Virus record (IMG/VR): IMGVR_UViG_3300009169_000085
Coordinates: 1-26,017 of that record
Direction: 5' to 3' (one strand)
Source of the DNA: a virus
Length of the DNA stretch: 26,017 nt
Shown: in pieces, positions 855 to 1,754 of the stretch
Numbering within the stretch: position 1 is the stretch's first letter
Layout: the number at the start of each line of letters is the position of its first letter
Translations under genes and position numbers: made by a program
Notes under the pieces: model-generated
Seen by the model: only the letters and a program-made list of their open reading frames with translations
What the model was told of the DNA's origin: nothing
The model's database searches: none

Positions 855-1542
855 CGTACACCTCCATAACAGAATGTTCGCCAAAAATAGCCCTTGCTGT
901 TGCGTCTTGTCTTAATTGATGCTCAGTCTTTTGCGATTGATCTTTAAGTACCCACTCAGCTTTAAAGCCTGTCCAACCTCTAGCGCATATTTCTTGTAAA
1001 GCGTCATTCAAAGAAATGTTAGCTTTTCTGGCTTCACGCTCTATGCCTTTTAAAGCGGTTTCTGTTATTGCGGCTTTCTTTGCTTTTCTTTGCTGAACAA
1101 AATCTTCCCAAACTGACTGCAAAACGCCGTCAGGCGTATGTAGTTTATTTGGTTGTTGGTTAGTGTTTAGTGTTTCTTGTTTAGGGTTATTTTGGGTTAG
1201 GCTTGGGTTAGGCTTGGGTATCCCATGGGTTTTTTTAGGTCTACCACCCTTGATTCCATTGAGTTTCTGCTTTTCAAGAAAACCGTGATATTGGGCTATT
1301 TCGGCATCCGCACGACTGTTTATGTACCCGTTCTCGGTGTACTCAAAAAACTCATTTAGTATCGATTTAACGATGCCGGACTCTATCCGTAACCTACGGC
1401 TAACCCATGGGATATCGATGGGTATTGGTGCTTCGGTATCGTAATACATATCCAGAAGTCTGCGATATGTAATGTCCTCAATTGGGGACAAGTGCATCGT
1501 GTGCTTGTTGTAATCACCGATGTTAAATTGATAATAGTGCAT
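826..1542 (-). CDS. YdaU/DUF1376-family phage replication protein
   Basis: The 239-residue protein begins MHYYQFNIGDYNKHTMHLSP, then IEDITYRRLLDMYYDTEAPI, the hallmark of the YdaU/DUF1376 N-terminal domain, a winged-helix domain of phage replication initiators. A lysine/glycine hinge (IKGGRPKK) and a Pro/Asn/Gln-rich linker follow. The C-terminal part (about residues 145-215) has the ARGWTGFKAEWV signature found in primosome/helicase-recruiting domains of such proteins. It should act as the O-like initiator together with the P-like protein encoded next. The frame could open at 1581, but family alignment and AAGG six bases before the ATG at 1542 fix the start. The ribosome site follows directly after a nine-T tract of a long hairpin, so expression probably depends on read-through of that leader. 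Confidence 0.8.
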   Translation of the reverse strand: MHYYQFNIGDYNKHTMHLSPIEDITYRRLLDMYYDTEAPIPIDIPWVSRRLRIESGIVKSILNEFFEYTENGYINSRADAEIAQYHGFLEKQKLNGIKGGRPKKTHGIPKPNPSLTQNNPKQETLNTNQQPNKLHTPDGVLQSVWEDFVQQRKAKKAAITETALKGIEREARKANISLNDALQEICARGWTGFKAEWVLKDQSQKTEHQLRQDATARAIFGEHSVMEVYDANNTRLLG

Positions 1543-1552
1543 AACAAACCTT

Positions 1553-1645
1553 AAAAAAAAAGGCTTCACCTGAATACTCAATTCCTTTTTTAAGGGAATC
1601 TGGTCGGGTAGGCACAGTAACCTACTGAGTATTCATGTGAAACCT
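1553..1645 (-). terminator. Long-stem intrinsic terminator/attenuator
   Basis: On the minus strand the 20-bp P1 stem (1626-1645 paired with 1561-1580) is followed at once by nine T residues (A run at 1553-1561). Between the arms lie two smaller hairpins rather than a tight loop, so termination efficiency may depend on folding order. The U tract abuts the AAGG ribosome binding site of the ydaU-like gene. Confidence 0.6.
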
Positions 1646-1673
1646 TACTGTTTTATCACCCCGACCAAGGGAT
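1553..1673 (-). ncRNA. Structured leader RNA or small RNA before ydaU
   Basis: From a promoter at 1680-1708 a minus-strand transcript would start near 1673 and meet four pairing elements. P1 is a 20-bp stem of 1626-1645 with 1561-1580, with one G-U pair and one mismatch. Inside it are P2 (1621-1625 with 1608-1612) and P3 (1595-1599 with 1581-1585). The segment ahead of P1 has two stretches, 1660-1667 and 1645-1651, that are exactly complementary to 1601-1608 and 1614-1620 and in the correct nested order. This second helix cannot be simply nested with P1: it makes a pseudoknot or a mutually exclusive fold. The arrangement is that of an attenuator, riboswitch or antitermination RNA, or of a stand-alone small RNA of about 120 nt. 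No known family is recognised. Confidence 0.55.
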
Positions 1674-1679
1674 GTAATA

Positions 1680-1708
1680 ACTATAAAACTATCTTGCCAA
1701 AAAGTAAA
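1680..1708 (-). promoter_or_regulatory. Sigma70-type promoter for the leader RNA and ydaU
   Basis: On the minus strand, TTTACT (1703-1708) and TATAGT (1680-1685) are separated by exactly 17 bases. Each matches the sigma70 consensus at four or five of six positions. The predicted start, about 1673, falls just upstream of the first pairing arm of the structured leader. This is what a dedicated leader promoter would look like. Confidence 0.6.
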
Positions 1709-1754
1709 GTGAGCCTCGATAAAGCACGATTTCCAATTAGAAAACTAAAACACT

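Follow-up and report, generated by a model that had tools for sequence, protein, structure and literature searches.

A covarying leader RNA of environmental phages as a candidate self-sensing transcription attenuator of the C4 / P4-CI type

Genomic context and layout of the leader

The window, i.e., the whole stretch of DNA analysed here (a 26-kb virus record of IMG/VR, 26,017 nucleotides), belongs to a P22-like phage, in which the P22 coat and scaffold proteins were identified. On the minus strand, a Cro/YdaS-like gene is followed by a predicted promoter, a leader with several RNA helices and a replication gene (Table 1). The terminator stem P1 of this leader (1646-1626/1580-1560) comprises 20 pairs with one mismatch. 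The first-pass annotation of this DNA had described a promoter, two short strands, a long stem with two small hairpins between its arms, a run of nine Us and a ribosome site, and the sequence check located all of these elements at the positions assigned to them, including the exact complementarity of 1667-1660 to 1608-1601 and of 1651-1645 to 1620-1614. Its list of parts stands, except that it missed the P0 hairpin: the strand 1667-1660, which it treated as a free segment, is itself the loop of a hairpin (1673-1658).

Table 1. Features of the leader and its flanking genes in the window
Feature	Position	Strand	Remarks
Cro/YdaS-like gene	1838-2059	minus	upstream of the leader
Sigma-70-like promoter TTTACT-17-TATAGT	1680-1708	minus	predicted start near 1673; position conserved across homologues
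P0 hairpin AUCCC-UUGGUC-GGGGU	1658-1673	minus	compensatory changes; hairpin type as in c4-a1b1/isrK
b1 target strand (P0 loop and first stem Gs)	1667-1660	minus	pairs with b' (1608-1601)
a1 target strand ACAGUAA	1645-1651	minus	pairs with a' (1620-1614); two-base overlap with the P1 base
P1 5' arm, terminator stem	1626-1646	minus	folding and covariation
P3 hairpin GUAGG-loop-CCUAC	1608-1625	minus	loop UUACUGU (1620-1614) is the a' antisense strand
b' antisense strand CCCGACCA	1601-1608	minus	pairs with b1 (1667-1660)
P4 hairpin AUUCC/GGAAU	1581-1599	minus	covariation
P1 3' arm (1580-1560) and nine Us (1561-1553)	1553-1580	minus	predicted intrinsic terminator
Shine-Dalgarno AAGG	1549-1552	minus	directly 3' of the U-run
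ATG of the DUF1376/YdaU gene	1542-1540	minus	
DUF1376/YdaU-like replication gene	826-1542	minus	first gene after the leader; Pfam PF07120, E 1.2e-21; PHROG primosomal and O-like

The interval that separates the leader promoter from the Cro-like gene contains two further features. One, an 8-bp inverted repeat, CAACTTTG/CAAAGTTG, at 1755-1762 and 1788-1795, is a possible operator or hairpin. On the minus strand, 3' of the Cro-like gene, the motif TTGGG-9-CCCAA followed by five Ts (1803-1830) has the appearance of a weak terminator; with such a terminator, the leader would be a transcription unit of its own.

The leader folds better than expected by chance, with z = -3.8 on the coding strand relative to dinucleotide shuffles, and a near-perfect stem of 22 pairs is its longest; across 200 such shuffles, the longest one averages 11.2 pairs and never exceeds 15. 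The opposite strand folds equally well, which a long stem would lead one to expect; the strand of the element is fixed as minus by the U-run, the Shine-Dalgarno sequence and the promoter. The promoter match by itself is weak (9 of 12 positions), and sites of this quality are about as frequent in shuffles. Its position is conserved, being found in 70% of 87 dereplicated homologues versus 5.5% of shuffled upstream sequence, when the -35 and -10 boxes together are required to score at least 8 (of 12) and the -10 box to lie 3-8 nt upstream of the P0 hairpin. The locus has the general makeup of an attenuator: a promoter, a leader and an intrinsic-type terminator ahead of the start codon, and an exclusive, covarying alternative helix.

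Homologues, compensatory change and competing folds

A search of IMG/VR with the replication protein as query yielded 80 loci, none of them selected for the RNA. With classes assigned by regular expressions, 22 of these 80 DUF1376 leaders carry an RNA of the window type under a strict rule, and 44 carry an int-alpA-like RNA instead. Two DNA patterns, with a U-run of at least seven built into them, gave at least 120 stretches (pattern 1) and at least 23 further ones (pattern 2) among the matches listed, and a descriptor kept at least 114 distinct elements; the loci derived from patterns are biased to strict members, and their abundance is a lower bound. More than 110 distinct homologues with the six helices kept were found on IMG/VR phage contigs, along with one in a Polynucleobacter prophage (L229, 3106-3202). 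The window element was found at E = 1.5e-6 by a covariance model from which its own subgroup had been left out. One member has imperfect a1/a' pairing (L151, 2140-2240) and another has a much enlarged P3 region (L133, 2126-2238); these are possible variants or decaying copies. Two viral pattern matches (L204 and L212) look like non-members in which the pairing is absent, and a pattern match on a Clostridia contig (L227) apparently arose by chance, as it is missed by the covariance model and lacks the terminator stem.

The element is rare in sequenced genomes, where it was found in one Polynucleobacter prophage and one betaproteobacterial metagenome-assembled genome; in the genome sampling, it was present in 3 of 398 genomes of the family of the Polynucleobacter prophage and in 1 of 369 of the class. 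Among phage records, the matches are to environmental assemblies only, and the plasmids searched gave no match to the element. Judging from these few genome matches and the exclusively environmental phage records, the hosts are probably freshwater Burkholderiales. A deposited phage genome (MW202520.1, 6498-6716; L254, 2479-2697) has a hypothetical protein annotated over a stretch that is homologous to the window leader and the start of its gene.

In 103 of 109 members, 8-13 nt separate the end of the U-run from the ATG. The first genes downstream match one primosomal PHROG in 29 of 73 cases, and the rest are O-like, DnaD-like, ParB-like, HNH or small unknown genes; the share of DUF1376 among the first genes is inflated by the loci picked via DUF1376. 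The RNA often precedes replication genes, which agrees with the phage replication control suggested in the first-pass annotation (a predicted function), and the framing of the element there as a ydaU leader proved too narrow in view of the variety of first genes. In one locus (L026, 3386-3500), the RNA lies about 500 nt upstream of the DUF1376 gene, and a short reading frame directly 3' of it forms an extra first operon gene.

Compensatory change was assessed in two subgroup alignments, as a MAFFT alignment of all 39 representatives placed the 3' arm of P0 wrongly. Across 25 diverse members, 97.6% of the cells pair, and there are 214 both-side changes, which are not counts of independent events, versus 56 in shuffles and 18-37 with the partners slid; P0, P1, P3, P4, PK2 (a1/a') and the single variable pair of PK1 (b1/b') all contribute. 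The ten members of the window subgroup have 48 both-side changes, versus 12.8 in shuffles and 2-8 with slid partners. Six helices, including both pseudoknot helices, are supported by compensatory change in these alignments, the P0 hairpin among them, and the compensating changes in both competing helices that the first-pass annotation had proposed looking for are decisively present. The letters of PK1 were demanded by the patterns and the descriptor, so that its invariance at those loci is partly a product of selection; the one R/Y position left free by the patterns has a Watson-Crick partner in all 92 distinct pattern 1 matches listed and in 14 of the 16 pattern 2 matches listed, the two exceptions looking like non-members. 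The strands of PK2 are highly variable, with 48 distinct a1 sequences, and a1/a' scores average 14.7 with the strand's own partner versus 7.6 with swapped partners. The core CUUGGCRG ... CUGCU ... AGUCYGCCAAC is conserved, in part because the search patterns selected for it.

These helices appear to form two folds that exclude each other. The strand a1 overlaps the P1 base by 1-4 nt in 100 of 114 members, and its partner, the a' loop, sits at the opposite end of a helix some 20 pairs long, so that, on geometric reasoning, complete PK2 and complete P1 would be mutually exclusive. In a nested partition function for 29 members, beside which the pseudoknot energies are crude sums without loop penalties, the probability of b1:b' is 0.94 before the 3' arm of P1 exists and 0.00 after, and that of the P1 base is 0.94 once the 3' arm is present. 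A conflict between the pseudoknot and terminator folds is strongly supported by these sequence-based calculations; the overlap, the covariation and the partition function agree with the earlier proposal of a helix that competes with the terminator stem in an attenuation or antitermination design. P1 is the thermodynamically stable end state, and antitermination would therefore have to be kinetic.

The cis helices by themselves account for all of the compensatory changes, which leaves room for an attenuator that works in cis only, with the choice between pseudoknot and terminator set by a phage or host protein, Nus factors, polymerase speed or a small molecule rather than by a second RNA copy. 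The very conserved core, although partly selected by the search, could then reflect a protein or ligand requirement. We regard this explanation as rather unlikely: the strongly conserved letters are partly common to C4 RNAs (the b1 loop and GCCAAC) and the others vary freely, as helices do, and the differing first genes are phage early genes and not members of one metabolic pathway.

Comparison with known RNAs

The Rfam scan of the element at gathering and relaxed thresholds returned nothing relevant, in agreement with the suggestion in the first-pass annotation that the RNA may be new, and no description of the leader RNA was found in the literature searched; the 224 candidate RNAs of 2017 and Burkholderiales-1, which is on a 2010 list and has no Rfam entry, lie outside this comparison. 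No put-type family was matched in these scans. A put-like RNA, which would bind the transcribing polymerase and let it pass later terminators, had been named as a comparison earlier, and the element does lead an early operon in lambdoid-type phages. An intrinsic-type terminator inside the element itself speaks against such a role, as does the variable a1/a' helix, which argues for RNA-RNA specificity and not for a fixed polymerase-binding surface; the put-type comparison is thus unsupported, and we rate this reading as extremely improbable.

The closest resemblance is to C4 RNA (RF01695), the family of the P1/P7 c4 and P4 CI RNAs. The C4 model gave no match at E up to 10 on the elements of the window, L187 and L125, while in a positive control it found phage P4 at 74.9 bits; likewise, the isrK and c4-a1b1 models (RF01394 and RF03163) left the element unmatched and are found in P4, where the order in the Rfam scan is isrK and c4-a1b1 (just under its cut-off), then C4. 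As in the window, C4 has a long closing stem around an a'-loop hairpin followed by an unpaired b' with GCCAAC (in the C4 consensus, a hairpin with the antisense loop and then UgCcAACCCC), and in C4 loci the same transcript carries, further upstream, a b1 hairpin and then a1, which are complementary to b' and a'. This order of b1, a1 and C4 was seen in 19 of 20 C4 loci from genomes of the Burkholderiaceae family, most of which also have a2 and b2 copies downstream, and in one of them (L240) the b1/b' letters UUGGUCG/CGACCAA are identical to those of the window. C4 RNA was found in 48 of 120 genomes of the family of the Polynucleobacter genome, and as many as 20 copies are listed for a single genome (G069). 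The window RNA differs from C4 in that about 115 nt hold the fused target, antisense and terminator, P1 serves both as closing stem and as terminator, the P2 hairpin is missing, with P3 directly after P1, and an extra hairpin, P4, follows b'. A second target, a2/b2, over the ribosome site was not found, as within 600 nt downstream the elements' own b1 recurs 3 times (4.0 expected) and their own a1 16 times (15.8 expected). Since the Rfam C4 model, P2 and a2/b2 all fail, the window RNA is not filed as a C4 member, though it would appear to work like a C4 system. The first-pass comparison to c4, set aside there for want of a clear match, was the right lead, the order and parts matching C4 plus its a1/b1 target, though the Rfam model does fail. 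The P4 CI RNA pairs with seqA and seqC, which leads to premature termination and keeps the replication genes off in the lysogenic state (PMC4825925, PMC10111431).

The isrK and c4-a1b1 (P4 seqA) RNAs also resemble the window RNA, being promoter-proximal short RNAs with a UUGGC-loop hairpin (consensus CGGGa-UUGGcA-uCCCG in isrK), an a1 strand and an intrinsic terminator. In isrK, however, termination falls to a short hairpin of its own, with the C4 antisense further downstream, whereas in the window the terminator stem encloses the antisense core. A terminated RNA of about 115 nt is a probable product of the window leader, close to the 120 nt predicted in the first-pass annotation, and it might be a free small RNA that acts on other host or phage RNAs, with readthrough incidental. 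The element's own promoter and own terminator (both predicted) would suit this role, and its C4 and isrK relatives are known as stable short RNAs (PMC4825925). Yet the fixed spacing of U-run, Shine-Dalgarno sequence and start codon described above ties the element to the downstream gene, and the downstream region has no second copy of the target strands above chance, so that we find this possibility distinctly improbable.

Another likeness is to the IncI-alpha repZ leader, which also has a UUGGCG hairpin loop, a pseudoknot with a downstream strand and a replication initiator gene next to it. There, translation of the initiator needs a 5' pseudoknot, which the antisense Inc RNA disrupts (PMC9977716, PMC10724649). 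Copy control of the plasmid type (IncI/IncFII), with the UUGGC loop and pseudoknot controlling initiator translation and an antisense RNA, transcribed from the opposite strand, counteracting them, would fit the shared loop, which is the very one studied in repZ control, and the frequent position of the element before a replication initiator. In repZ, control is exerted on translation by a countertranscript, whereas in the window the pseudoknot precedes an intrinsic terminator and falls short of the ribosome site, and no countertranscript is evident, the promoter-like site on the plus strand at 1508-1535 being of a kind found at background frequency. This reading seems very improbable to us.

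The int-alpA RNA (RF02996) occupies the same site, between the promoter and the DUF1376 gene, in other phages (int-alpA-like leaders include L018, L032, L066 and L030, and 2 of 13 scanned loci reach the Rfam cut-off). It has a different sequence and helix order and no long terminator stem, and the window element gave no int-alpA match in Rfam; the two were accordingly rejected as being the same RNA. A loop strand of the int-alpA-like RNA appears to pair downstream, seemingly near the ribosome site, and in function this RNA may correspond to that of the window. Among ribozymes, permuted hammerheads and others were also weighed in the light of the literature; inspection by eye showed no letters of a hammerhead core.

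A model of self-sensing attenuation

In our preferred reading, which we consider somewhat likelier to be right than wrong, the element is the untranslated leader of a replication operon, attenuates transcription in the manner of C4 and P4 CI, and senses itself via copies that act in trans. The comparison supports the helices, the fold conflict, the leader position, the promoter and the U-run; from the model we infer the termination efficiency, the direction of the switch, the stability of the short RNA, its action in trans and immunity. Transcription would begin at the leader's own promoter, and in the nascent RNA b1 (in the P0 loop) and a1 would pair in cis with b' and a' (in the P3 loop). 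This cis pseudoknot (a1b1:a'b') would be the antiterminator; it would occupy the basal part of the P1 5' arm, so that the terminator would not form in time and the polymerase would continue into the replication gene (the ON state). A terminated transcript would be an RNA of about 115 nt in which P1 is closed while a' and b' are exposed. In a cell that is infected or lysogenic, these copies would build up and base-pair in trans with the b1 and a1 strands of the leader that is transcribed next, leaving that leader's own a' and b' without partners; P1 would then fold, and transcription would end ahead of the replication genes (the OFF state). The expected outcome is gene-dosage control and superinfection immunity with a specificity set by the a1/a' sequence. 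A resident phage would probably shut off, via this leader, its own replication and that of its relatives.

RNA-only phage immunity is, to our knowledge, known from very few systems, namely P1/P7 c4 and P4 CI. The antisense, target and terminator of these systems are dispersed across several hundred bases and difficult to dissect. More tentatively, with a chance that we put slightly below even, the family may represent a new class of autonomous RNA immunity element, in which a leader of about 115 nt would be sensor, antisense effector and terminator at once, would sense its own terminated copies and would confer on each phage lineage an exchangeable immunity group through the 6-7 nt a1/a' helix. 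In the family studied here, the same logic would be condensed in a single short leader, one that covaries strongly, is common in environmental phages and precedes diverse early genes, and it offers a minimal, directly testable model of self-sensing transcription control and RNA-specified heteroimmunity. It would also account for leaders that lack annotation at present or have been annotated as small hypothetical proteins. Cro- or repressor-like genes are present as well in the window phage and the Polynucleobacter prophage, so that RNA immunity would act in them alongside other control and not as the sole one.
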